From Myxococcota bacterium (lineage in GTDB: Bacteria; Myxococcota_A; UBA9042; DTJE01): a DNA stretch of 60,958 nucleotides. The stretch lies in NCBI GenBank assembly GCA_017994695.1, contig JAGOKF010000015.1, positions 1 through 60,958 on the forward strand, in the 5' to 3' direction. This document shows positions 2,133 to 27,824 of this stretch, piece by piece (the stretch's first letter is position 1; each line of letters starts with the position of its first letter). The position numbers were made by a program, and so were the translations under genes. The notes under the pieces were generated by a model, which saw nothing but the letters and a program-made list of their open reading frames with translations, was not told the DNA's origin and did not search any database.

Positions 2133-4235
2133 ATGGTGACTTTCCGTCGAGGCATCGCGATTCTGCTGCTGGCCGCAGCGTCCTGCGGAGGTGGCCAGAC
2201 GGCGCGCTTCCCCCGGATCGAACTGGACCCGCCGGAACTGGACGCCCAGATCGACACCGAGTACTCCCTGGTCATCCGGAACACCGGGGACGCGCCCCTG
2301 ACACTGACCGAGGCCCCGTCGCTGACCTTCCAGGGATGCGAGGGAGACCCCGACGACCTCTTCACCCTGGACTACGACACCACGCGGTCCTTCCCTCTGC
2401 AGATCGCCCCCCGGGGATCGGAAGCGGACTGGCCCGATCTGCCGACCTCCCTGCCCCTGGCCGTGGTCTATCACCCGGCACCCGGGGACTGCCCCCGGTC
2501 CGCCGTGATCCGCATTCCCAGCGATGATCCCGACCGCCCGGTCCTGGAGGTCCGGCTGCAACTGATCCGCGGCGAGCCCCACCTGGAGGCGGAGCCCTCG
2601 CCCCTGGACCTGGGATACGTCCCCGAAGGGGATCGGCAGGAGGGGATCCTGACCCTGAGGAACACGGGACTGGGCGACCTGCGCATTTCCCGGGTGGGCT
2701 TCCTGGGCAAGGAGGGGTTCTTCGTCCAGTGGAAGTGCCCCCGGATGGACGGGACCAGCGCCGATGCCTGGCTCCCCGTCGGCCCGAAGACCACGACGAT
2801 GGACGGCACCGTCTGCGCCGAGGAGATCGTCATTCCGAGGAACACCGCGTTCACGGTCCCGGTGAAGTACCAGGCCATCGACGATCAGCCCGCCAGGGCC
2901 ACCATGTCGTTCTTCTCCAACGACCCCGAGTTCGACGCCGCCAAGGGCGAGGCCCTGGAGGTCGAGTTGCGGGCGAACGTCGGCGGGCCCTGCCTGCGGC
3001 TGGTCCCCTCCCCGGTGGACTTCGGGGGCGTGGTCGCCCCCGGCGCCAAGCAGATGAGCGCCCGGATGACCTCCTGCGGCGACCAGGACGTGGCCGTGAC
3101 CTCCATCACGCTGGACCCCGCCGGGAGTTCGGACTTCCAGCTGGACCTGTCGAACCTGGGAGCCTTCAACGCGGCGAGCCCCCTGGTGCTTCGTCCCGGA
3201 GAGACCTCCCGGGACTTCGTGATCCGCTTCCTCCCGCAGACGGTGGACAAGGACCCGACGGGCGCGGTGCTTCCCGATACGTCGACGCTGCTCATCGCGA
3301 ACAACTCCCCGGCCCAGGTCCTCAAGGTGCCCGTCAAGGGGCTCGGAGTCGAGGCCCAGTGCGCGAAGTGCCAGTTCACGATCCGGTCCGGCGCCAAGGT
3401 CCTGGGGGACGGCGCATCGGTCGAGCCCCTGACGGTCCTGAACCTGACCGACGAATCCTTCGACCCCACGGATCCCCTGGCGGGCGGCGGCATCACGAAG
3501 CGGCTGTGGACCGTGGCCCAGCCCCCGGGATCGGTGGAGAATTTTCAACCCTCTCCCTACCTGCCGGAAACGAACTTCGCCTGCAACATCGTCGGGGAAT
3601 ACGTCTTCACCCTGACCGTGGAGAACGCCCAGGGGTGCAGCGACACGTGCAGCCGGACCATCCTGGTCAATCCTCCCCAGGGGATCCACATCGAACTGAC
3701 CTGGAACACCCCTTCGGATCCGGATCAGTCGGACCGCTGCAGCCCCGGCATCCAGTGCGGGTCGGACATGGACCTCCACGTCGTCCATCCCTACGCCCGG
3801 GGTGACGTGCTGGACCCCCAGGGCCAGGTCTACGGGTACTTCGACGACGACTGGGACTGCTACTGGGCCAATGCGCATCCGGTGTGGGACCTCCAGCATG
3901 CCTCCGACCCCCTCTACCAGCCCAACCTGGACCGGGACGACACCGACGGCGCCGGGCCCGAGAACTTCACCTACCCGATCCCTCCCAAGGACAAGTGCTT
4001 CCGGGTCGGCGTCCACTACTTCGACGACCACACCTTCGGGCGGTCCTATCCGACGATCCGGGTGTACCTGGACAGCGCCACGCCCATTTACGAGAAGACC
4101 GTGTCGAAGGGCATGAACATGCTGGACATGTGGGATGTGGGACGGGTCTGCTACTGGGACCAGTCCCACCCCTTCCAGGAGTTCACCAAGAGCAACGGGG
4201 ACCCCGTGATCATCTCGAATTACCGTTCGCCCTGA
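2133..4235 (+). CDS. multidomain surface lipoprotein (ASPM/HYDIN-like Ig repeats)
   Basis: A 700-residue product. The ATG at 2133 gives a lipoprotein signal peptide with lipobox LAAASC (Cys about 18) and has GAGG at 2121. After it come two or three Ig-like domains of the ASPM-SPD2-HYDIN / 'choice-of-anchor D' type: repeated phrases such as LDLGYVPEGD and VDFGGVVAPGA, each followed by 'RNTG' or equivalent strands, at about residues 30-400. A Cys-containing PKD-like segment follows (about 405-510). The C-terminal 190 residues (SDMDLHVVHP, GPENFTYPIPP, FRVGVHYFDD) resemble the DUF2135/YfaP-type domain of secreted proteins. It probably sits on the outer membrane and binds protein or matrix. The next gene, also a lipoprotein, follows within 20 bases. 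Confidence 0.75.
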   Translation: MVTFRRGIAILLLAAASCGGGQTARFPRIELDPPELDAQIDTEYSLVIRNTGDAPLTLTEAPSLTFQGCEGDPDDLFTLDYDTTRSFPLQIAPRGSEADWPDLPTSLPLAVVYHPAPGDCPRSAVIRIPSDDPDRPVLEVRLQLIRGEPHLEAEPSPLDLGYVPEGDRQEGILTLRNTGLGDLRISRVGFLGKEGFFVQWKCPRMDGTSADAWLPVGPKTTTMDGTVCAEEIVIPRNTAFTVPVKYQAIDDQPARATMSFFSNDPEFDAAKGEALEVELRANVGGPCLRLVPSPVDFGGVVAPGAKQMSARMTSCGDQDVAVTSITLDPAGSSDFQLDLSNLGAFNAASPLVLRPGETSRDFVIRFLPQTVDKDPTGAVLPDTSTLLIANNSPAQVLKVPVKGLGVEAQCAKCQFTIRSGAKVLGDGASVEPLTVLNLTDESFDPTDPLAGGGITKRLWTVAQPPGSVENFQPSPYLPETNFACNIVGEYVFTLTVENAQGCSDTCSRTILVNPPQGIHIELTWNTPSDPDQSDRCSPGIQCGSDMDLHVVHPYARGDVLDPQGQVYGYFDDDWDCYWANAHPVWDLQHASDPLYQPNLDRDDTDGAGPENFTYPIPPKDKCFRVGVHYFDDHTFGRSYPTIRVYLDSATPIYEKTVSKGMNMLDMWDVGRVCYWDQSHPFQEFTKSNGDPVIISNYRSP

Positions 4236-4254
4236 CAATGGCCCGGCGGGAGGC

Positions 4255-5211
4255 ATGATGCGTCTTGTCCGATTCGCCCTGGGATGCGGGTGCGTCGCGT
4301 GGTCGATGTCCTGCGGCGGATCCTCGGGGGATCCGGGGGACGCATGGGCCGAGGTTCCGGTCGTGATCTTTCCCGATTCCGGCCCTCGGGACCCCGGGTC
4401 GCCCACCGATCCCGGCCTCCTCGATCCGGGAGCGCGGGATCCCGGGCAGGGCGATGCCCCGGGAACTGATCCGGGCAGGGATCCGGGAACTCCCGACCCC
4501 GGCGCCCCGGACCCGGGAACGGAGGACCCGGGCTCCTGGGATCCGGGAGCCTTCGACAGCGGCCCCCGGGACCCGGGCTGCGTCCGCAACTGCACGAACC
4601 GCCAGTGCGGATCCGACGGTTGCGGGGGTTCCTGCGGACAGTGCACCGCTCCCGCCCAGTGCCTGTCCTTCCAGTGCGTCTGCACCCCGAACTGCACGAA
4701 CAAGACCTGCGGGGACGACGGCTGCGGCGCCACCTGTCCGCCCGGCTGCCCCGAGGACCGTCCCTGCGCCCCCGAGGGGAAGTGCATGGGCTACGGAGTC
4801 ACCGGTTCCTGCCCCAGGTTCACCACGGCCGAGTGCGACGGCACCTACGAGCCTCTCGGCGGCACGGGATCGTCCAACAGCGACATCCTGGACCTGTATC
4901 CCTCCTCCTGCGGCGGAATCGTGGCCCACGGTCCCGAGCGGGTGTACCGGCTGGTTCCGGACACGACCGGTACGATCACCGTGAAGTTTTCCCAGAGCAC
5001 CCCGCCGGGCCAGTCGTTCCTGCAGGTCTTCGTGCTGAAGGGGAAGGACTGCCTGACAACCTCCTGCATCCAGGCCGGGAAGGGGACCTTCAGCGTCTCC
5101 GTGGAAGCGGGCCAGACCTACTGGTTCGTGGTGGACGCGGACGTCAACAACACGGGCATGTTCAGCCTCTTCCTCGACTGCGACTGGTACACGCCGCCCC
5201 GGGACTACTGA
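4255..5211 (+). CDS. lipoprotein with DPG linker, Cys-rich repeats and a beta-sandwich end
   Basis: A 318-residue product. ATG codons at 4255 and 4258 are both possible; GGAGG ends at 4253, so 4258 is slightly better spaced. The lipobox is WSMSC (Cys about 20). Residues 40-110 are a flexible linker with 11 DPG tripeptides. Two Cys-rich modules follow (about 108-165) with the spacing C-x3-C-x4-CG-x2-GC, the same module as in the leftward gene at 9483-10604. The last 150 residues look like a PPC-type beta-sandwich (RVYRLVP, GTITVKFSQ, YWFVVDAD). It is most likely an outer-surface protein. Its stop overlaps the end of tkt tail to tail by 7 bases. Confidence 0.75.
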   Translation: MMRLVRFALGCGCVAWSMSCGGSSGDPGDAWAEVPVVIFPDSGPRDPGSPTDPGLLDPGARDPGQGDAPGTDPGRDPGTPDPGAPDPGTEDPGSWDPGAFDSGPRDPGCVRNCTNRQCGSDGCGGSCGQCTAPAQCLSFQCVCTPNCTNKTCGDDGCGATCPPGCPEDRPCAPEGKCMGYGVTGSCPRFTTAECDGTYEPLGGTGSSNSDILDLYPSSCGGIVAHGPERVYRLVPDTTGTITVKFSQSTPPGQSFLQVFVLKGKDCLTTSCIQAGKGTFSVSVEAGQTYWFVVDADVNNTGMFSLFLDCDWYTPPRDY

Positions 5212-7253
5212 TTCGGCTTCGGCCCGGAAGCCCCGTTGCGGGACTTCCACCAGCGGGCGATCCTCCCGGCGACGGCCTCGGGGGTGAAGCCGTATTCCCG
5301 GGCCAGCACCTCCGCGGGGGCGCTTTCCCCGAAGCGATCCATCCCGATGGGCAGGCCGTCGAGGCCGACCCACTTCCACCAGCCCAGCGTGGAACCGGCC
5401 TCCAGGGAGACCCGGGGCACGCCCCGGGGGCATACGGCGTCCCTCCAGTCCTCCCCTTCGGCCTCGAACCGTTCCAGGCAGGGAATCGACACGACCCGGA
5501 CCCCAATGCCCTCCGAGGCCTCCAGGCGTTCCGCCGCCGCGACGGCCAGGGGGACTTCCGACCCGGTGGCCAGGACGACCAGGTCCGGCGTGCCCCCCCG
5601 GGCTTCCCGGAGGACGTATCCTCCCCTCCGGACGGCATCGATCCCCGCCCCGGCGGGACGAGGCAGCGCCGGGACGTCCTGGCGCGTGGTGACGATGCAC
5701 GATGGCCCATCCTCCAGGGCCTGCTCCCAGGCGACGGCCACCTCCAGCGGATCCGCCGGCCGATAGACCTTCATTCCCGGGATTCCACGGAGGGCCCAGA
5801 GATGCTCGACGGGCTGGTGGGTCGGTCCGTCTTCCCCGACCTGGTAGCTGTCATGGCTGAAGACGAAGATCACCCGGAGCCGCATCAGCGCCGCCAGTCT
5901 CAGCGACGGGGTCAGGTAGTTCGAGAAGGCCAGGAACGTGGATCCGAAGGGACGGAAGGGACCCGCCAGGGCCATCCCGTTCACCATCGCCCCCATCGCG
6001 TGCTCCCGGATGCCGAAATGGATGTTCCGGCCGGAGGCGTCCGTCCCCGAGACGTCCCCGCAACCCTCCAGCCGGGTCTTGTTGGACGGGGCCAGGTCGG
6101 CCGAACCGCCCACCAGGGCCGGGATCTCCCGGGCGGCCACCTGGAGAGCCCGGTGGCACTGTTCCCGGGTGGCCTTCCCCGCAAGGGCCTCCGCCTCGAC
6201 GGACATCCGGCGGGCCAGGCCTTCGGGGAGTTCCTTCCGGTGCAGTTCGTCCCAGACCCCTGCCGCATCAGGGTGTTCCCGTCGCCAGTCGTGGAACCGG
6301 GCCTCCCAGTCCTCCCGGGCCCGGGTTCCCCGCCGGCCGATGGACCGGAAGAGTTCCTCCACGTCTGGGGGGATCCAGAAGGTGCGGTCCTTGGGCCACC
6401 CCAGTTTCTCCTTCGTCGCCAAGGCCTCCCGGGGTCCGAGGGGCGCCCCGTGGGTCTTCGGGGATCCCTCCAGCGTCGCAGAACCGCGCCCGATGATCGT
6501 CCGCAGCACGATCAGGGAAGGTCTCTCCCGCTGTCCGCAGGCCTTCTCCAGCGCCCGGTCGACCTCGTCGGCCGCGTGTCCGTCCACCTCCTGGACGAAC
6601 CACCCCTGGGACTGGAATCGGCCCCGGACGTCCTCGGAGAAGGCCAGGTCCGTGGCCCCCTCGATGGTCACCCGGTTGCTGTCGTAGAGGCACACGAGGT
6701 GCCCCAGGCGGAGGTGCCCCGCCAGGGACGCCGCCTCGCAGGTGATCCCCTCCATCATGTCCCCGTCACCGGCCATCACGAAGACCCGGTATCCGACGGG
6801 GAAATCGGCGTCCTTCTGTACCCGGGCCGCCAGCATCCTCCCGGCCAGGGCCATTCCGACCCCAGTCGCGAACCCCTGTCCCAGGGGACCCGTGGTCGTT
6901 TCGACCCCGGGGCAGCCCCCCTGTTCCGGGTGACCCGTCGCCCGGCTTCCCAGTTGCCGGAAACGCCGGATGTCGTCCAGGGACAGGTCGTACCCCGTCA
7001 GGTGCAGCAGGGCGTACTGGAGCATCGAGGCATGGCCGGCCGACAGCACGAACCGATCCCGATCGACCCAGTCCGGGCGGGCGGGATCGAACCGGAGATG
7101 CCGGGCGAAGAGCACCAGCGCGGCCTCGGCCATTCCCATCGGCGCGCCGGGATGGCCGGACCGGGCGGCCTCGACGGCGTCCACGGCCAGCATCTGGATC
7201 GTGCGGACCGCCCGATCCCACAGGTCCCTGTTCCCCAGGATGTTCTCGTTCAT
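5205..7253 (-). CDS. tkt: transketolase
   Basis: A 682-residue product, normal for the family. It transfers two-carbon ketol units in the pentose phosphate pathway with thiamine diphosphate and a divalent metal. Visible hallmarks are SGHPGAPMGMA (about 32-42), GPLGQGFATGVGMA, the ThDP-binding motif starting GDGDMMEG, LYDSNRVTIEG for the metal loop, and the pyrimidine-domain signature FGIREHAMGA. The C-terminal domain carries VVLATGSEV. The ATG at 7253 is preceded by CGGAAGG. It is the third gene of a leftward panB-panC-tkt set, 25 bases after panC. Confidence 0.97.
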   Translation of the reverse strand: MNENILGNRDLWDRAVRTIQMLAVDAVEAARSGHPGAPMGMAEAALVLFARHLRFDPARPDWVDRDRFVLSAGHASMLQYALLHLTGYDLSLDDIRRFRQLGSRATGHPEQGGCPGVETTTGPLGQGFATGVGMALAGRMLAARVQKDADFPVGYRVFVMAGDGDMMEGITCEAASLAGHLRLGHLVCLYDSNRVTIEGATDLAFSEDVRGRFQSQGWFVQEVDGHAADEVDRALEKACGQRERPSLIVLRTIIGRGSATLEGSPKTHGAPLGPREALATKEKLGWPKDRTFWIPPDVEELFRSIGRRGTRAREDWEARFHDWRREHPDAAGVWDELHRKELPEGLARRMSVEAEALAGKATREQCHRALQVAAREIPALVGGSADLAPSNKTRLEGCGDVSGTDASGRNIHFGIREHAMGAMVNGMALAGPFRPFGSTFLAFSNYLTPSLRLAALMRLRVIFVFSHDSYQVGEDGPTHQPVEHLWALRGIPGMKVYRPADPLEVAVAWEQALEDGPSCIVTTRQDVPALPRPAGAGIDAVRRGGYVLREARGGTPDLVVLATGSEVPLAVAAAERLEASEGIGVRVVSIPCLERFEAEGEDWRDAVCPRGVPRVSLEAGSTLGWWKWVGLDGLPIGMDRFGESAPAEVLAREYGFTPEAVAGRIARWWKSRNGASGPKPNQ

Positions 7254-18878: not shown

Positions 18879-19757
18879 ATGGACGACCGCACCACCCGCA
18901 TCACCACCATCCGGAAGATGGTCGCCGACGGCCCCCTGGGCACCGAGTGCCTGGTGGTGATCTACGGTTCGGGCATCGGCCGCAAATACGATCTCTTCGA
19001 GGAAGAGGTCACCATCGGGCGAGACCCGGAGAACACCATCGTCCTGAACTCCGACGCGGTCTCCCGGCGTCACGCCCGGGTCGAGAAGGTCGGGGACGCC
19101 CGCTACGTCACGGACATGGACAGCACCAACGGGACCTACATCAACGACATCCCGATCCGCCGCGCCCGCCTTCCCAGCGGGGCATTCCTGAAGATCGGCG
19201 ACACGATCTTCAAGTACCTGACCGGCGATGACCTTGAGGCGGCCTACTACGAGGAGATCCACCGGATGGCCGTCACCGACGGTCTGACCCAGGCCGCCAA
19301 CAAGCGCGCGATGGACGAGTTCCTGGAACGGGAGATGTCCCGGGCCCGGAGGTACAACCGCAACCTCTCGGTCCTGATGATGGACATCGATCACTTCAAG
19401 GACGTCAACGACACCCACGGACACCTCATCGGCGACCAGGTGCTCCGGGAACTGGTGGCCGTGGTCCGACCCCGGATCCGGCGCGAGGAGCTGTTCGCCC
19501 GGTACGGCGGAGAGGAGTTCGTCGTGATCCTCCCGGAGGCCGACATCCAGGCGGCCCGGGAACTTGCGGGGACGCTCCGATCCCTGATCGAGGAGCACCT
19601 GATCGTGCTGGAGGGCCGCACCCTCCGGATCACCGTCAGCATCGGGGTGGGGCAGTTCCAGCCCGAATCCCACCGGTCCCCACAGGATCTCCTGAAGGAG
19701 GCCGATCGCAATCTCTATGCGGCGAAGGCCGCGGGGAGGAATCGCGTGCATGGCTAG
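18879..19757 (+). CDS. FHA-GGDEF diguanylate cyclase
   Basis: A 292-residue soluble protein. An FHA phosphothreonine-binding domain (about 25-115) shows TIGRDPENTIVL and SRRHARVEK, with STNGTYIN; it should place the enzyme under a Ser/Thr kinase. The GGDEF domain (about 128-290) has DGLTQAANKRA, the metal-binding MDIDHFKDVND, and the active site GGEEF (about 210-214), which is compatible with c-di-GMP synthesis. The inhibitory I-site position reads RREE instead of RxxD, so product feedback may be weakened. The gene overlaps the PilZ-like gene by 8 bases, suggesting one signalling unit. Confidence 0.92.
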   Translation: MDDRTTRITTIRKMVADGPLGTECLVVIYGSGIGRKYDLFEEEVTIGRDPENTIVLNSDAVSRRHARVEKVGDARYVTDMDSTNGTYINDIPIRRARLPSGAFLKIGDTIFKYLTGDDLEAAYYEEIHRMAVTDGLTQAANKRAMDEFLEREMSRARRYNRNLSVLMMDIDHFKDVNDTHGHLIGDQVLRELVAVVRPRIRREELFARYGGEEFVVILPEADIQAARELAGTLRSLIEEHLIVLEGRTLRITVSIGVGQFQPESHRSPQDLLKEADRNLYAAKAAGRNRVHG

Positions 19758-20319
19758 TTCCCCCTCTTCCTCCAGCGGCGGAGCGGTCAACGAGACCTAC
19801 ATCGGGAGCCTCTTCGACTGCATCCGGGCCCTCCGGAAGGCCGAGCAGGAGGCCAATACCCCCTACGGCAGGGGCGACCCCATCCTGGCGACCCGGATCA
19901 AGGAACTCCGGACCTACCGGGAGGTCCTGCTGAAGCAGGCCTCCTCGCAGAAGCCGCGGATGACGCTGACCGAGAAGAAGAACGAGGAGGCGTCCCACGA
20001 GATGGCCCTCGTCTTTCCCACGGGACTGCTCTTCTACGAGGCCCTGGACCTGTCCCTGACGAAGGGCGGCCTCTTCGTGAAGACCGATCAGATCCTCCCC
20101 ATCGACACGGTGGTGGACCTGAAATGCACCATCGAGGAGGAGCACGTCGAATTCCGGATCCAGGGAAAGGTCGTCTGGATCAATCCCCGGGAGACGGCCG
20201 GTCGGCCCGCCGGAATGGGGCTGAAGTTCCCCCGCATCACCAACGTGCAGAAGCAACTGCTGCTGGATTTCCTGTCCGGCGAGGTCCCCCTGGCCGCCCT
20301 GGCCCACATGGGGGATTGA
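19750..20319 (+). CDS. PilZ-like protein of the Myxococcus paralogous type
   Basis: A 189-residue product; the ATG at 19750 lies inside the end of the cyclase gene. Residues 1-85 are Ser-rich then helical. The C-terminal 100 residues form a PilZ-like barrel with DLSLTKGGLFVKTD and GKVVWINP, close to the TIGR02266 group that is abundant in Myxococcus. The N-terminal RxxxR pair that holds c-di-GMP in classical PilZ domains is not visible before the DxSxxG motif, so direct c-di-GMP binding is uncertain. It may instead be an adaptor. Coupling to the cyclase supports a role in the same pathway. Confidence 0.8.
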   Translation: MASSPSSSSGGAVNETYIGSLFDCIRALRKAEQEANTPYGRGDPILATRIKELRTYREVLLKQASSQKPRMTLTEKKNEEASHEMALVFPTGLLFYEALDLSLTKGGLFVKTDQILPIDTVVDLKCTIEEEHVEFRIQGKVVWINPRETAGRPAGMGLKFPRITNVQKQLLLDFLSGEVPLAALAHMGD

Positions 20320-20340
20320 CGGCCCCGTCGTTTTCTTCTG

Positions 20341-21903
20341 TCAGAACCGCGCCCGGGCCAGGATCGTGAAGCCGAAGGAGTTCGGGTCCAGGAACTCCCG
20401 CTGGGACTGGCGCTCCCCGGTGGGGTCGATGACCAGCCGGGTCAGGTTCTCGTCCCGGACGTACTGGAGGTTCCCCAGCAGCGCGAAGAACTCCGACAGG
20501 TCCCACTGGACCCCCACGCGCAACTGGTAGATCGGCACCGCTCCGAATCCGGTTGGCAGGCGGTCCCGCCGCGTGGCGTCGCGGATCACCTGGACCGTCC
20601 GGGGGCTGGTGGTTTCGAAGGTGGCCGGGAACTGGATCCCGCCGGTCACGAAGGGCATCACGTGCTGCTTCTCGAAATACCAGTCCACCGTCGCGGCCAC
20701 GAAGTACTCCGGGGAGGCCCTGGTGCCGGTCTCGGGCAGCGCCACGAAGGGGGTCAGGCTGGGCACGTTCTGGAGGATGTACTCGAGGTTGCGGATCAGG
20801 CCGATGGCCTGGGCCCGGAGGTGGTCCCACTTGAACTTCAACTGCACGGCCCCCGCGTAGGCCGGCTGGAGTTTCGTGCTGCCGTAGCGGTCCAGGTTCT
20901 CCAGGCGCTGGACCAGGTAGTTGAACTCGCCGGACACGGACCAGGAGAACTTCCCCTTCTGGTACTTCTCCCGCCACCAGTCCACGACGTTCACGTCGGG
21001 ATCGGACCGGTAGAGCATGTAGTCCACCGAGGTCTGGATCGGCAGGCCCTGGCGGACCGTCAGCCGTCCCGAACCGCCGAGGGTGTAGACCTTGTCCCCG
21101 ATGAGTTCCCGGGTGCGGCTGAAGGTCCCCTGCTGGAACCACCCGAACCCCAGGTCCAGGCGCACCCACTGGTAGAGGTCGATGCCCAGGCCCGCCAGCA
21201 CGCCGTAGTTGGTCTCCTGGACCGTGATCTCCTCGGCATCGGCGGATCCCAGCTGGACCACCTGGCTCACCCGGGCCGTCTTCAGTCCCACATAGCCCGA
21301 CAGGGCCACGTTCTTCCCGGCGTCCCCCCGGACGTCCACCTTGAACCCCGGGGCCGGCCCGGTCTTCCGGCTGCTGAAGATGTTGCCGCCGCCCCAGGAG
21401 ATGTCCCAGAGGTATCCCAGCCGGAAGCGCTCGGTGTCGAAGGGGAAGAACGTCAACCCGATGTAGTTCCGGTCCGGCGCTTCGGCGTTCCAGGTCCAGG
21501 CGGCCCGGAGGTAGGTGCCGTCGTCCCGGAGCACGTCGGTGACCCGGGGATTGGTCCCCTCCATCAGGGATCCCAGGTCCAGTTTCAGCACCAGTCCGGC
21601 CTCTGTGGTCAGGCCGGTCAGGAACCCGGGCATCTTCTTGTAGAGCACGATGTGGGTCAGGTTCTCCCGGCCCTTCGTCTTGGTGTCCAGGTTGTCCATG
21701 AACAGCTCGTAGCCCTTCCGGTCCCCGATCCCCGGCAGGGGACTGTCGGGGACCTTCTCCCCCGACTTCCGGGCGACGTCGTCGTCGCCGAAGGTCCAGG
21801 TGATGCGGGTATCCATGAAGTCCCCGGCGAGGGCCGGGCCCGAAAACAGGACCACCAGGCCCAGGGCGACGAACCGCCAGGTTCCGGACAGGGATGTCGT
21901 CAT
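20341..21903 (-). CDS. outer-membrane beta-barrel protein
   Basis: A 520-residue product. The ATG at 21903 has GGAGG upstream and gives a signal peptide ending GPALA (about 26). The rest is a run of amphipathic strands with aromatic girdles (for example RFRLGYLWDISWGG, FYF-like pairs and alternating polar residues) and ends in ILARARF, the C-terminal Phe recognised by the BAM machine. It resembles long porin-like barrels; no specific family is recognised. Its start overlaps the stop of the OB-fold-like lipoprotein by 4 bases (ATGA), and the 5'-nucleotidase gene comes first in the operon. A channel or anchor for that surface system is an inference. Confidence 0.72.
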   Translation of the reverse strand: MTTSLSGTWRFVALGLVVLFSGPALAGDFMDTRITWTFGDDDVARKSGEKVPDSPLPGIGDRKGYELFMDNLDTKTKGRENLTHIVLYKKMPGFLTGLTTEAGLVLKLDLGSLMEGTNPRVTDVLRDDGTYLRAAWTWNAEAPDRNYIGLTFFPFDTERFRLGYLWDISWGGGNIFSSRKTGPAPGFKVDVRGDAGKNVALSGYVGLKTARVSQVVQLGSADAEEITVQETNYGVLAGLGIDLYQWVRLDLGFGWFQQGTFSRTRELIGDKVYTLGGSGRLTVRQGLPIQTSVDYMLYRSDPDVNVVDWWREKYQKGKFSWSVSGEFNYLVQRLENLDRYGSTKLQPAYAGAVQLKFKWDHLRAQAIGLIRNLEYILQNVPSLTPFVALPETGTRASPEYFVAATVDWYFEKQHVMPFVTGGIQFPATFETTSPRTVQVIRDATRRDRLPTGFGAVPIYQLRVGVQWDLSEFFALLGNLQYVRDENLTRLVIDPTGERQSQREFLDPNSFGFTILARARF

Positions 21904-23402
21904 GGTTCCTCCGTGTCACGCAGGCGAACGCATGCGGTCGCGGCCGATGGCGGCTCGCCTTCGATGGTCAGGTCCTCGATGCACCTGGGCTCCAGGATCC
22001 AGGGCTTCGGACGCAGGAACGACAGGTTCCGCAGCGTCCCGGTCACCGCCGACAGGCGGCGCGGCACCGACGGGTCGAAGGGGTCGAAGGAGGGCACCGA
22101 GTCCCGGCTCGACACCCACAGCTTGGCGCCCCCCGATCCGCCCACCCGCACGGGCCACTGTCCGTACTGCCAGTACTGGGTCAGTTCCAGGCACAGGGGC
22201 GACGCGTCGCAGGACTCCCGGCACTGGCACTCGGCATCGCACTGGTTGGTGCCGTAGTCGCGGAAGTTGACCGCCCCGTCGCCGTTCAGGTCGCAGTTCA
22301 CGAAATCCCGTTCCGGGTCCGGCAGGTCCACGTCGCGCACCCGGACCAGGGCCGCCTCCAGGGCCTCCATCGGGAGGGGCCCCTTGCCGTTCAGGGTCGC
22401 CGCGTCCAGAGTCGCGGGGTCCGGAACGGGGCATTCTTCCTTCTTCGGATCCCAGGGGATCAGTCTCCACGACGGGAAGTTCATTTCGGTGAACCCGTAG
22501 AACTCGCTGATGATCCCCTGGACCATTCCCAGCCGGTCGCAGGGCCGGACGACGATGGCCTCCTGGGACGAGCAGGCCAGTGTCTCCTGCTCGTCCTCCT
22601 GGCAGTCGGGAATGCTGGTGGGCGTGTTGAAGGAGAACACGAACAGGTGGTTGTAGCCCCGGCCGCCCCGGTCGGCGACGTCGGTCACGTACATCCCGTC
22701 GGAGGTGACCCGGGTGACCACCAGGTCGCCCCGCTCCACCGTCACGTTCTCCCCGGCGAAGGGCGACCTGGACGCATACCCCTGCAACTCCGCCAGGGTG
22801 GGGCTCTGGAAGAACATCGGCACCGACACGCCCGCGGCACCGGATCCGGCTTCCTCGCTGTCGTCCGTCCCGTCCAGGCACCCGGGGTCGGCCCCGTCCA
22901 CCAGCCCGTCCCCGTCGTCGTCCCGTCCGTTGGAGCAGGCCGCGACCTGTCCGATGCGGGCCCTCGGGACGAACCCGACGTCCGTCGCCCAGAGGTGGGT
23001 GGTGCCGAAGGCCGCCGTGATCACCAGTTCCACCCCGTCCCGCTTCCCCCCCTCCAGCAGCACGTCGCTCCCGGCGATTCCCTGCCCCGGGACGATCGTC
23101 ACGGTCCCGGGCCGGGCCGAGATCCGGACCCAGCGGTCGTCCAGGATCCGGCCGGAACCGTCGGCCGCCAGCGCCTCCAGGTCCACCACCATTCGGAGGC
23201 CCCGGGTCACGTCCGAGGGATCCGGCATCGGCAAGGGGTCCCCTGGGGTTCCGAGGGACCCGCCGTCGGCTCGCCGCACCGCGACGCCGATCCCGGCGAC
23301 CTCCAACCCCCAGTCCCTCGCGACGTCCTCCTGGCAGGCCACGGCCAGTCCCAGCAGGACGACGCCGCATCTTCCCCACCGCCTCGTCGCCGATGTCGCC
23401 AA
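21900..23402 (-). CDS. lipoprotein with OB-fold-like and calcium-loop segments
   Basis: A 500-residue product from a TTG at 23402, chosen because GGAGG lies 8 bases upstream and it gives a lipobox (LAVAC, Cys about 24); longer readings enter the previous gene. A 150-residue domain comes first, then an Asp-rich calcium-type loop (DDDGDGLVDGADPGC). A segment like the OB-fold repeats of extracellular nucleases (YhcR/ExeM type) follows: ENVTVERGDLVVTRV, GMYVTDV, LFVFSFNT, then GMVQGIISEFYGFTEM. An EF-hand-like CDLNGDGAVNFRDYG and a second VTGTLRNLSF motif follow. No catalytic nuclease core is seen. The OB assignment is a pattern judgement of moderate strength. Confidence 0.65.
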   Translation of the reverse strand: MATSATRRWGRCGVVLLGLAVACQEDVARDWGLEVAGIGVAVRRADGGSLGTPGDPLPMPDPSDVTRGLRMVVDLEALAADGSGRILDDRWVRISARPGTVTIVPGQGIAGSDVLLEGGKRDGVELVITAAFGTTHLWATDVGFVPRARIGQVAACSNGRDDDGDGLVDGADPGCLDGTDDSEEAGSGAAGVSVPMFFQSPTLAELQGYASRSPFAGENVTVERGDLVVTRVTSDGMYVTDVADRGGRGYNHLFVFSFNTPTSIPDCQEDEQETLACSSQEAIVVRPCDRLGMVQGIISEFYGFTEMNFPSWRLIPWDPKKEECPVPDPATLDAATLNGKGPLPMEALEAALVRVRDVDLPDPERDFVNCDLNGDGAVNFRDYGTNQCDAECQCRESCDASPLCLELTQYWQYGQWPVRVGGSGGAKLWVSSRDSVPSFDPFDPSVPRRLSAVTGTLRNLSFLRPKPWILEPRCIEDLTIEGEPPSAATACVRLRDTEEP

Positions 23403-23424
23403 GTCCCCTTCCTCCGTCCCCCGT

Positions 23425-25893
23425 TCAGGGCGGCAGCAACCGCAGGCGCCCGTCCTCGGCGATCCCGTTGGTCCCGTCGATGCAGGCCGTCCGGCCGCAG
23501 GCCAGCCAGGCGGCCTGGCGCTGCCTGCAACGGCACTCCACCCCTTCCGGGGACTCCGCCGACAAGTCCCGGCATCTCTGGGCGAACTGGGCCGAGACCT
23601 CCTCGACGCAGCCCGCAAGCACGCATTGCCCGCCGGAAGGACAGGCCTCCAGGTCGGCACAGACCGAACCTTGCCATTCCATGCGTCCCTCGCAGGAGCA
23701 GCGATACCCCGATGGGCATCCTCCCTCCCCTTCGCCGTCCCGGGTGCAGGCCCGGAGATCCCCGCAGGGACGCCCCCCTCGCAGGAAGTCCATCAGGGCG
23801 TCCCGCTGCGGCACGCCGGTGTTGATCTGGGTGGTGTTCCGCTTCAGGACCATGAATCCCGACCCGCCCTTGGCGATGTAGTCGTTCACGGCGACGGAAT
23901 ACTGGGAATCCAGTTGGAGCGGCTCGCCGTTGATCCGGATCTCCACCGCGCACCCCTCGGCATCGGGTCGCTGGACCGGCCACTCGGCGGGCCTCCGGGA
24001 CAGGTCGCACCGGCCGCACTGGAGCACCGCCCGGACCCCGGCCACCTGGGCCTGGGCCTGGCAGCCCCGGCTGGAGGACCTCCGGGCGACGTAGTCGAAC
24101 AGTTCGACCACCTCCCGCCCCGACAGGTACATCCTGGTGATGCTGTTCTCGAAGGGGAACACGTTGTAGAGGACGTCCACCGTGACCGGCCCGGCGTAGA
24201 TGTCCGACCGGATGCCCAGGCTGTTGGTCAGGGCGAAGTCGGTCTCGACCCCCTTGCGGCGCTGCATCGCGGTGGCCACGGCATTCCCCAGCGCCGAGTC
24301 GCCTCCCACGGTGCCGAAGCGTTTCGCGTCGGTCGGGGCGTATCCCAGCACCTGGTCCAGGGGAACGGCCTCCTCCAGCACGTCCACGTAGGGTTCCAGC
24401 AACTCCTCGGTCAGCCGGTCGCCGGGAACCCGGGCGTCCACCGGGACGACCTGGTACCGGTAGGAGGCGATCTCCCAGTCATTGGCACGCTGCCTTCCGG
24501 GAGTGGCCTCGCTTCCGTCCAGGGCGTCCAGGCACTTGGGGTCCTCGAGGTCCGTCCGGCCGTCCTCGTCGTTGTCCACCCCGTCGGAGCATGGGGAGGC
24601 CTGGGAAAAGACCGCGTCGAAGTCCCCCACGTACTTGGCGAAGGCCCCCGAGTGGGCCAGGGGCACCTTCCGGGAGGGCGGCAGTCTCAGCCCCATCTGG
24701 CGGGCCAGAGGGAAGCAGGCGGCGGCCGCCTGGTCCTCCGCATAGGTTTCGATGGCCGCCTCCCGCTCCTCCGGCCCCAGGGCGAGGATCGCCGGGGGCA
24801 CCGCCGGGACCGCCGACAGGGCGTCCAGGCACGCCGCGCGCCAGGCCGACCGGTCCCTCCGGGGAAGCACGCCGCCGGCCACCTCGGGCACCCGGTCCAC
24901 CAGCCGCTCCATTTCCGGCAGCAGGTCGTCGCAAAGCCCGGCCACGTCGGCCGTCGAGGCCCCCCGGACCATCGCGTTGCGCCACGCTCCCGCGAGTCCC
25001 TTCACGCAGGCCGTGTCGAAGTACCGGGTCACGACCTCGTAATGGCAGCCCTGGCCGTCGAGGATCTGCTTCGGCGGGTTCAGCACGATGTGGTGGTGCC
25101 CCCCGAGGACCAGGTCCGCACCGGAAATGCACGGGATCAGGCGCTCGTCCTCCGAAAGGCCCAGGTGGGAAGCCACGATGATCACGTCCACCTGCGGCCG
25201 CAGCAGGTCGATGTAGAACTGGGCGGTCTCCGCGGCGTCCATCGGGGTGATGCCCAGGGAGTTGGGCGACTCGACCAGCGAGGACATGCTGGAGGTGTTC
25301 CCCAGCCCGATCACCGCCACCCGCAGTCCCTGCAACTGGAAGACGTGGTAGGGCATCACCAGGTCCGCCAGGGGCGGAACGGTCGGGGACAGGGGCGGTG
25401 CGATCAGGTAGTTCGCAGCCAGGACCGGGAAGGACGCGAACCGGGCGATCCGGTCGGCCACGTTCGGCTCGCCGGCATCGAATTCGTGGTTCCCGATGGT
25501 CATCGCGTCCACGCCCATCCGGGAGAGGGCCCGCATCTCCACCTCCCCCTGGAAGACGTTGAAGATCGGGGCTCCCTGGAAGACGTCCCCGGTGTCGATG
25601 TGGAGGCTGCGGTTCGCCCGCTGGCGAATGGTCCGGGACAGGTGGGCGATCCGGGCGATTCCCCCGAAGGGGCCGTTCTCGTCTGCCAGGCCGAGGGTCT
25701 TGTCCGTCTGGGCGACCTTCATCGGGTAGGGAAGGAGCCGCGAGTGGATGTCGGTGGTGTGGACCAGGACGACCCGGACGTTCTGTCCGTCCAGGTCCGG
25801 CTGCGTGGTGGAAACCTGGCAGGCAGTCGCCAGCGCCGCGGCCAGAACCGCCAGGATCCTCGACGACAGGAGCCCCCTCGGCATCGCGTTCAT
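23425..25893 (-). CDS. UshA-family 5'-nucleotidase lipoprotein
   Basis: An 822-residue product from the ATG at 25893 (an ATG at 25884 is also possible), with lipobox LATAC. The N-terminal metallophosphatase has the metal ligands in order: HTTDIHSR, GDVFQGAP, GNHEFD, ASHLGLSED and GGHHHIV. A roughly 150-residue insert contains a calcium-type loop (DGVDNDEDGRTD). The 5'-nucleotidase C-terminal domain has DFALTNSLGIRSDI, NVFPFENSI and SVAVNDYIAKGGSGF. A Cys-rich 110-residue tail ends the protein. It should hydrolyse nucleotides (or UDP-sugars, cyclic nucleotides) outside the inner membrane. It is larger than UshA (about 550) because of the insert and tail, and heads a three-gene surface operon. 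Confidence 0.88.
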   Translation of the reverse strand: MNAMPRGLLSSRILAVLAAALATACQVSTTQPDLDGQNVRVVLVHTTDIHSRLLPYPMKVAQTDKTLGLADENGPFGGIARIAHLSRTIRQRANRSLHIDTGDVFQGAPIFNVFQGEVEMRALSRMGVDAMTIGNHEFDAGEPNVADRIARFASFPVLAANYLIAPPLSPTVPPLADLVMPYHVFQLQGLRVAVIGLGNTSSMSSLVESPNSLGITPMDAAETAQFYIDLLRPQVDVIIVASHLGLSEDERLIPCISGADLVLGGHHHIVLNPPKQILDGQGCHYEVVTRYFDTACVKGLAGAWRNAMVRGASTADVAGLCDDLLPEMERLVDRVPEVAGGVLPRRDRSAWRAACLDALSAVPAVPPAILALGPEEREAAIETYAEDQAAAACFPLARQMGLRLPPSRKVPLAHSGAFAKYVGDFDAVFSQASPCSDGVDNDEDGRTDLEDPKCLDALDGSEATPGRQRANDWEIASYRYQVVPVDARVPGDRLTEELLEPYVDVLEEAVPLDQVLGYAPTDAKRFGTVGGDSALGNAVATAMQRRKGVETDFALTNSLGIRSDIYAGPVTVDVLYNVFPFENSITRMYLSGREVVELFDYVARRSSSRGCQAQAQVAGVRAVLQCGRCDLSRRPAEWPVQRPDAEGCAVEIRINGEPLQLDSQYSVAVNDYIAKGGSGFMVLKRNTTQINTGVPQRDALMDFLRGGRPCGDLRACTRDGEGEGGCPSGYRCSCEGRMEWQGSVCADLEACPSGGQCVLAGCVEEVSAQFAQRCRDLSAESPEGVECRCRQRQAAWLACGRTACIDGTNGIAEDGRLRLLPP

Positions 25894-25910: not shown

Positions 25911-25940
25911 AGCATAGGAGGCCGCCCCCCGCCTTGTCAA
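25911..25940 (-). promoter_or_regulatory. strong sigma-70 promoter for the nucleotidase operon
   Basis: Read leftward: a perfect TTGACA (25940-25935), an 18-base spacer of mostly G and C, then TATGCT (25916-25911). Transcription would begin near 25904, about 11 bases before the ATG at 25893. Confidence 0.65.
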
Positions 25941-26525: not shown

Positions 26526-26567
26526 AGTCGTGGCAGACTTGAGCCCGTGAAGGAAGGGATCCCCTGG

Positions 26568-27824
26568 ATGGTCTGCCCCCGACTGGCGGTTCCCGTGCTG
26601 TTCCTGCTGCTGCTCCCGTCGCTTTCCGCGGCCGAGACTCCTTCGTGTCGCCAGCGGTCCATCGCCCTCGTGTTCAACGGGGACGATTCCCCTGCCCTGA
26701 CCGATTTCCGGCACGAGGTCGAAGACCAGGTCTCCCGGAACCCCTGCTACCGGATGATCGACGTCGTCGTGCTGCTGGAGGCGGGGGTCTCTCCGGCCCA
26801 GGGTCTGGTGCAACAGGGCATGACCTCCCTCGACCAAGGGCTTCGGCACGTGGAGGAAATGCGCCTCGAGGAGGCGGTTCCCCTCCTGCGGGAGTCCGTC
26901 GATTCCCTCGGTCGCGCCTTTTCCCATCTGGCCCATCCCCGTCCCCTGGTCCAGGCGCTGCTGGCCCTGGGAGGCGTGCTGGCGGCGACGGGAGACCCGA
27001 AGGGGGCCCGGGAGGCGCTGATCGGGGCCTTCCACCTGGATCCCCAGGCCCGGATCGAGGACGTGCTGGTGCTTCCCGAGGCCCTGGAGGCCCAGGAAAT
27101 CGCCCGCCGGATCCTGGCGGCCGGGCGCACCGGGAGCCTCCTCGTCGACAGCAATCCCCCGGGAGCCGAGGTCTGGATCGACGGCACCTACCGGGGTCCG
27201 GCCCCCTGGGACGAACCGACCATCGGGGCCGGCCTGCACTTCGTCACCCTCCGCCTTCCCGGCTGGGAACGGAAGAGCCTCGTCGTCCGGGTCCCCGACC
27301 AGGGTTCCGCCTCGGTCACGGGAGAGGATGCCCGGCTGTCCCCCGCCCGCCGTCGTCCACTGCTGGAGAGCGCGAAATCCAAGCTGGCCCGTTCCGGCCC
27401 CGATCGGGACCCGAGCGGGGGCATCGAGGACCTCAAGGCTCTTTTCCTGACGGATCTCCTTCTGGTGGTGGACCTCATGGCCGAGGGCACCCATGCCGCC
27501 CTGTGGGACCTCCAGACGATGGATCGGGTCTTCCAGAAATTCGAACCCCAGACCCTCTCGGGCGACGCGATCGGCCGGGGAACGGTGGTTTCCCTGGTGA
27601 TGTCGGCGTTCCGGGCCGACCTGGCCCGCTTCCAGGTCTCCGAAGGTCCCGGAGCCGTTCCCCGGCGCAAGCCGGGCATCGTGAACCGCTGGTGGTTCTG
27701 GACGGCCATCGGCGTCGTGGCCGCGGGGGCGGTCACGGCAGGGGTTCTGCTGGGACGGCCCGGGTCGTCCCATCCCGACGGTCTTTCCCGGGACGGAACC
27801 GGATCCGTCATCATCCGTTTCTAG
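26568..27824 (+). CDS. exported PEGA-domain protein with C-terminal membrane helix
   Basis: A 418-residue product. The ATG at 26568 is preferred over a GTG at 26547 because AGGAAGGGA lies 8 bases upstream and it opens directly into a signal peptide (VPVLFLLLLPSLSAA). The middle has helical, TPR-like repeats (AVPLLRESVDSL, GDPKGAREALIGAF). A PEGA domain lies at about 185-255 (GSLLVDSNPPGAEVWIDG). A final transmembrane helix (WTAIGVVAAGAVTAGVLLG) is near the end. The layout, with tetratricopeptide-like helices then PEGA then a helix, is common in Myxococcota envelope proteins. It is followed by a TPR protein; together they suggest an envelope scaffold. Confidence 0.75.
   Translation: MVCPRLAVPVLFLLLLPSLSAAETPSCRQRSIALVFNGDDSPALTDFRHEVEDQVSRNPCYRMIDVVVLLEAGVSPAQGLVQQGMTSLDQGLRHVEEMRLEEAVPLLRESVDSLGRAFSHLAHPRPLVQALLALGGVLAATGDPKGAREALIGAFHLDPQARIEDVLVLPEALEAQEIARRILAAGRTGSLLVDSNPPGAEVWIDGTYRGPAPWDEPTIGAGLHFVTLRLPGWERKSLVVRVPDQGSASVTGEDARLSPARRRPLLESAKSKLARSGPDRDPSGGIEDLKALFLTDLLLVVDLMAEGTHAALWDLQTMDRVFQKFEPQTLSGDAIGRGTVVSLVMSAFRADLARFQVSEGPGAVPRRKPGIVNRWWFWTAIGVVAAGAVTAGVLLGRPGSSHPDGLSRDGTGSVIIRF

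Follow-up and report, generated by a model that had tools for sequence, protein, structure and literature searches.

Positions 1-60,958 of contig JAGOKF010000015.1 of a Myxococcota bacterium (assembly GCA_017994695.1), a stretch called the window here, carry three minus-strand genes at 20341-25893. In order, they encode a 5'-nucleotidase lipoprotein, an OB-fold lipoprotein and a porin-like outer-membrane barrel. This trio is a co-inherited operon with a fixed gene order. It may serve as a conserved Myxococcota outer-membrane system for nucleotide scavenging, in which extracellular nucleotides or oligonucleotides are captured, dephosphorylated and taken up, a reading to which we give about an even chance. 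It is favoured because of the fixed order and co-inheritance, the OB homology, the retained metal motifs and shared pocket signature of the nucleotidases, and the porin-like model of the barrel; in several families, further double-OB lipoproteins stand within the operon or next to it, which argues in the same direction. The operon is composed as follows.

25911-25940, minus strand: sigma-70-type promoter of the operon, TTGACA-18-TATGCT
23425-25893, minus strand: gene 1, 5'-nucleotidase lipoprotein, 822 amino acids (Pfam, PDB relatives, lipobox ATAC, predicted lipid on Cys25)
21900-23402, minus strand: gene 2, OB-fold lipoprotein, 500 amino acids (TTG start, lipobox AVAC, predicted lipid on Cys23)
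20341-21903, minus strand: gene 3, outer-membrane beta-barrel, 520 amino acids (signal peptide, C-terminal Phe, AlphaFold2 (AF2) model, Foldseek)

A preliminary description of this DNA had presented the three leftward genes as a tight operon behind a consensus sigma-70 promoter, and both statements hold. Genes 1 and 2 are separated by 22 bases, and genes 2 and 3 overlap by 4 bases (ATGA), exactly as described. The promoter sequence is the sole sigma-70-like site in 7.1 kb, where shuffled sequences predict 0.2. Upstream of gene 1, all ten genomes of the family examined have a TTGACA-type box (exact TTGACA in nine, TTGACT in one) with TAnnnT 17-18 nucleotides behind it; the promoter is therefore conserved and no chance match.

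The barrel is found in 128 of 379 Myxococcota genomes, about a third. Within the class, barrel and middle protein are both present in 21 of 52 genomes and both absent from the other 31, counts that are uncorrected for kinship. A genome of the same family, G005, lacks both, which implies joint loss or gain. Among 33 neighbourhoods sampled from about 28 further families, 32 have the full order of nucleotidase, OB lipoprotein and barrel. When 84,980 species genomes were scanned separately, 52 barrel loci emerged, almost all with a Myxococcota or Deltaproteobacteria label; the trio is complete at 40 of them, and 7 of the remainder are short of upstream sequence. The three genes are thus kept together in relatives across Myxococcota, far more consistently than chance would produce. 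Trio loci include those of Myxococcus xanthus AM003 (L161), other Myxococcus, Pyxidicoccus, Archangium, Hyalangium and Citreicoccus. At two loci (L125, L146), the OB lipoprotein and the barrel are kept and the nucleotidase is absent. Distant barrel homologues at L142, L145 and L158 have neither lipoprotein partner alongside. A Myxococcus-like trio also lies on a 767-kb contig in a record titled Comamonas sp. KCTC 72670 (L135), a genome that is probably mislabelled.

A wider operon was looked for across the neighbourhoods, and no fourth gene is constant beside the trio; an extra double-OB lipoprotein recurs. In five neighbourhoods of the phylum (L191-L193, L210, L213), one more gene for a double-OB protein separates the middle gene from that of the barrel, and at other loci such a gene lies upstream of the trio. 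Large double- or triple-OB proteins are encoded directly 5' of the trio at L139 (375-1964), L141 (423-3737) and L159 (1393-3927), two of them with lamin tail domains. The genome of the window itself encodes, at L108 1-2692, a protein with calcium-type repeats and a double OB module, the start of which resembles an amidohydrolase and the end a lamin tail (all assigned by eye except the OB module).

Gene 2 would provide the link to nucleic acids. The preliminary description had noticed OB-like segments in its product, and profile methods bear this out as a double OB module.

22977-23309, minus strand: N-terminal Ig-like beta domain, limits approximate (AF2 model, Foldseek)
22875-22949, minus strand: acidic double-disulfide (calcium-type) loop joining the Ig-like and OB parts, residues 152-176 (NF033662, E 5.5e-7)
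22311-22760, minus strand: first OB domain, ExeM/YhcR type (hhalign; NF033681 matches on orthologues)
21951-22319, minus strand: second OB-like half (hhalign over the whole double-OB module)
22239-22295, minus strand: EF-hand/dockerin-like Cys-flanked loop CDLNGDGAVNFRDYGTNQC within the second OB half (sequence and alignment)

Single-sequence Pfam and PDB searches with the gene 2 protein return no OB domain; profile methods alone detected one. In hhalign, the alignment of 18 middle-protein orthologues matches 11 independent OB domains with a probability of 98.5 (E 3.3e-15), and double-OB modules across nearly the whole C-terminal two thirds with a probability of 98.4 (E 8.5e-15). The controls, a reversed alignment and the barrel, reach 0.2% and 0.4%. 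Reciprocally, the middle-protein profile retrieves independent OB proteins. The ExeM/NucH model NF033681 matches the middle protein in two genomes of the class (E 1.4e-6 and 1.3e-4), with a best score of 28.8 bits confined to the OB part; of the 18 orthologues scanned singly, it matches four (best 9.9e-5). An OB hidden Markov model gives values below 0.01 for many middle proteins, the best value among 3065 reversed open reading frames being 1.4. The AF2 model, with a predicted local distance difference test score (pLDDT) of 86.6, has an OB-type strand order after the N-terminal Ig-like domain. Foldseek with the full model is dominated by the Ig-like domain and gives no OB match and nothing at E <= 0.001, so that the OB assignment is based on the profiles and the strand order of the model. 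The Ig-like assignment comes from the best Foldseek matches, domains of about 115 residues in GH2 enzymes (E >= 3.6e-3); the M. xanthus orthologue has a weak Invasin_D3 match. As judged by these profiles, the middle protein consists of an Ig-like domain and a double OB module of the ExeM/YhcR type. Its calcium-type loop is present in 15 of 18 orthologues, and minimal orthologues comprise the Ig-like domain and the double OB without this loop and without the EF-like insert.

The OB module could also be a scaffold or protein-binding module instead of a nucleic-acid binder, in which case the trio would do no more than acquire phosphate or nucleotides. The middle protein has indeed diverged in its OB region: the OB hidden Markov model is weak (>0.1) on several Myxococcaceae members, and the most conserved stretches, FTEMNFPSW and YGQWP, are unlike canonical ExeM-type OB domains. 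Such a role is nonetheless unlikely, as minimal members keep near-canonical OB scores (1e-8 to 1e-17) and further double-OB proteins accumulate in the same operons.

The catalytic component is encoded by gene 1, the features of which are the following.

25087-25767, minus strand: Metallophosphoesterase domain, residues 43-269 (PF00149; motifs DIH, DTGD, GNHE, SHLG, GGHHH)
24529-24594, minus strand: acidic double-disulfide (calcium-type) loop in the gene 1 insert, residues 434-455 (NF033662, E 4.5e-7)
23842-24318, minus strand: 5_nucleotid_C substrate-binding domain, residues 526-684 (Pfam, CD73 pocket alignment)
24208-24225, minus strand: pocket motif NSLGIR, within 5_nucleotid_C
23854-23868, minus strand: pocket motif GGSGF, within 5_nucleotid_C

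Both domains exceed their curated cut-offs, PF02872 (5_nucleotid_C) with E 2.3e-27 and 96.5 bits against 23.6, and PF00149 (Metallophos) with E 4.5e-9 and 37.5 bits against 21.5. The PDB relatives 2z1a, 3ivd and CD73 align over about 500 residues. With the UshA equivalog model NF007109, the protein scores 156 bits, below the cut-off of 600. The metal motifs DxH, GD, NH[ED] and GHxH are complete in the window protein and retained across the trio nucleotidases, as GNH or ANH, with two exceptions, the truncated reading frame L155 and L189. With a narrow search pattern, 11 nucleotidases seemed to lack GNH[ED]; ten of them have ANH[ED] at this place, and only L189 lacks the His. The L189 nucleotidase (3603-5582) has VGNEFD in place of [GA]NHEFD, possibly owing to a sequencing indel.

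The substrate pocket sets the trio enzymes apart. The signature GGSG[FYL] is found in 71 of 72 trio nucleotidases, in contrast to GGDGF in CD73 and GGDG[FY] in the other solved relatives compared; the window nucleotidase accordingly lacks the canonical GGDG[FY] of the UshA/CD73 family. The pocket loop of the trio enzymes reads N-x-[L/Q/K/T]-G-[I/L]-R, and that of the solved relatives mostly NGGGIR or NSGGIR. GGSGF was not found in the non-trio 5'-nucleotidases examined from the same class. A second 5'-nucleotidase of the window's genome (L108 8483-10210) is of the ordinary type, with GGDRMDGF and without trio partners. The Asp that is replaced by Ser contacts the ribose hydroxyls in CD73, and an altered substrate is therefore plausible. 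The replacement, together with the variant loop, suggests a specialised substrate for the trio nucleotidase. A deoxynucleotide or the end of an oligonucleotide, which would not make the usual ribose-hydroxyl contacts, is one possibility.

CD73-type enzymes clear extracellular nucleotide signals in animals, and the trio nucleotidase, which is predicted to be secreted and lipid-anchored, could likewise remove ATP or AMP signals or act in detoxification instead of nutrition. This role would leave the linked OB protein and the barrel unexplained, and we regard it as very improbable.

In the window and in the aligned relatives, the products of genes 1 and 2 both have a signal peptide and a lipobox Cys, and lipidation is predicted for both. 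The calcium-type loops that had been proposed for the two lipoproteins are recovered as matches to NF033662, an NCBIfam model of an acidic double-disulfide repeat, with the E-values given above and each below the curated cut-off. The preliminary description had further counted an insert with such a loop and a Cys-rich tail among the features of the nucleotidase. Both are present in the window, but the calcium loops and the Cys-rich tail are lineage-specific decoration outside the core: relatives in g4, g7 and g8 are nucleotidases of about 660 residues without the insert, and among the trio nucleotidases the tail varies between 46 residues without any Cys and more than 370 residues with about 50 Cys.

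These surface features also fit another role of the trio, that of an extracellular-DNA or matrix adhesion complex, in which the OB and Ig-like domains would hold DNA for the cohesion of biofilms or aggregates. The nucleotidase would then serve local trimming or signal clearing, and the barrel would be an anchor or a lipoprotein exporter. Ig-like domains, Cys-rich tails and calcium-type loops are features typical of surface-displayed proteins, and the barrel could flip or display lipoproteins instead of moving solutes. Extracellular DNA is reported to be bound to exopolysaccharide in M. xanthus biofilms (PMC9073016). A complete catalytic nucleotidase and a porin-like barrel, in an order fixed phylum-wide, are nevertheless a better fit to turnover and transport, and many lineages do without calcium loops and Cys-rich tails. 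Adhesion thus has a low probability in our view.

Gene 3 codes for the putative passage through the outer membrane. Its product has a signal peptide, a C-terminal Phe and, in a model of moderate confidence (pLDDT 73.1), a nearly all-beta, antiparallel barrel. Foldseek with this model retrieves porins and maltoporin (best E 3.0e-8). No curated Pfam family matches the window barrel, and its 18 relatives give weak generic barrel hits at most; a Pfam plug or TonB-dependent-receptor match is likewise missing from the window barrel and these relatives. As modelled, gene 3 encodes a porin-like barrel without detectable TonB-dependent features. At L197 and L198 (family f30), the nucleotidase and OB genes are followed by a tandem pair of barrels that belong to one family.

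In the scavenging system proposed here, the OB lipoprotein would capture oligonucleotides or nucleotides that separate nucleases or lysed prey have set free, the nucleotidase would strip the terminal phosphate, and the barrel would pass nucleosides and/or phosphate across the outer membrane. If the lipoproteins face the periplasm, the nucleotide itself might cross the barrel. We infer nucleic-acid binding, the orientation of the lipoproteins, their physical association with the barrel, transport and, as proposed earlier, the capture of DNA or nucleotides at the surface. Proteomics of the M. xanthus outer membrane detected two 5'-nucleotidases, MXAN2470 and MXAN5361, either of which might belong to the trio (PMC3222651), a finding compatible with an outer-membrane site. 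A lipoprotein-like EEP phosphoesterase is encoded elsewhere in the genome of the window (L183).

Several points weigh against scavenging. Pfam and NCBIfam scans of the three proteins reveal no staphylococcal-nuclease or EEP nuclease domain, so none of the three is known to cut DNA, and the substrate must be delivered by enzymes outside the trio. Sugars and proteins are bound by OB folds as well, and UshA-type enzymes also accept UDP-sugars and NAD. The lipoproteins could face the surface or the periplasm. Confidence in the model of the barrel is moderate (pLDDT 73), and the first 55 or so residues, although strongly conserved, lack modelled structure.

A more far-reaching version, dedicated DNA scavenging, is conceivable but rather doubtful. 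Here, the trio would be a phylum-specific, TonB-independent machine with OB capture of nucleic-acid fragments, a nucleotidase adapted to deoxynucleotides or oligonucleotides, and a new barrel family that imports the product.

Two plus-strand genes converge on the trio, one for an FHA-GGDEF diguanylate cyclase (18879-19757) and an overlapping one for a PilZ protein (19717-20319). In the sister species L073, the trio is likewise adjoined by a diguanylate cyclase/PilZ pair. A PEGA-domain protein gene (26547-27824, plus strand) diverges from the promoter region. A candidate terminator separates the convergent genes.

20317-20332, plus strand: terminator-like hairpin between the trio and the convergent PilZ gene; weak, with 6 such sites found against 2.6 +/- 2.1 expected

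Myxococcota include predators that lyse their prey and are thereby faced with large loads of DNA and nucleotides, and no description of how the products pass the outer membrane in this phylum appears in the papers found. The trio occurs in about a third of the sampled genomes, and its barrel and middle protein are each without a Pfam family. Its occurrence in cultured Myxococcus makes its role directly testable in a laboratory strain. No publication describing the trio was found in the literature searched, in which subscription papers were mostly not covered.

Among known systems, Bacteroidota SusCD and XusAB pairs resemble the trio in that lipoproteins and an outer-membrane barrel are co-encoded, and XusA is among the Foldseek matches. 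The trio barrel differs from theirs in being smaller, without a plug or a match to TonB-dependent-receptor families, and closest to diffusion porins. Foldseek matches LamB and general porins at E-values from 2e-7 to 1e-4, with TM-scores for LamB of 0.50 (query) and 0.56 (target); the trio barrel departs from them in its sequence identity of about 10%, its conserved N-terminal segment and its lack of a curated Pfam family. With UshA/CD73-type 5'-nucleotidases, gene 1 shares both domains, the metal ligand motifs and the long alignment, and it is distinguished by GGSG[FYL], the variant loop, the lipid anchor, the variable Cys-rich tail and the obligate gene partners. Pfam DUF5689 finds the additional double-OB lipoproteins next to the trio (E 3.8e-9 in L150) and so belongs to the same OB superfamily, whereas it gives no score on the trio's own middle protein.

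Further parallels are YhcR and ExeM. In YhcR of Bacillus subtilis, OB domains and a 5'-nucleotidase are combined in a single polypeptide. The double OB module of YhcR and of Shewanella ExeM (NF033681) is common to the middle protein, as detected by profiles; in ExeM, the two-OB region is required for nuclease activity, and substrate contact has been proposed for it (PMC6085458). YhcR and ExeM are each one polypeptide that includes a nuclease domain, whereas the trio has two separate lipoproteins without such a domain, plus a barrel. Its middle protein has the OB region of the ExeM/NucH family, but it has no EEP domain and stays below the 300-bit cut-off of NF033681; nor does the trio unite OB, nuclease and 5'-nucleotidase in one chain as YhcR does. 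The earlier comparison with YhcR therefore stands for the functional architecture, OB and 5'-nucleotidase on separate lipoproteins, and fails for membership, since the trio has no nuclease domain and is not a single polypeptide. On the best reading of these comparisons, the trio would function like a YhcR split over separate lipoproteins, outside the YhcR and ExeM families. If this is true, the combination of OB and nucleotidase known from a single polypeptide can also exist as an outer-membrane complex with its own channel.

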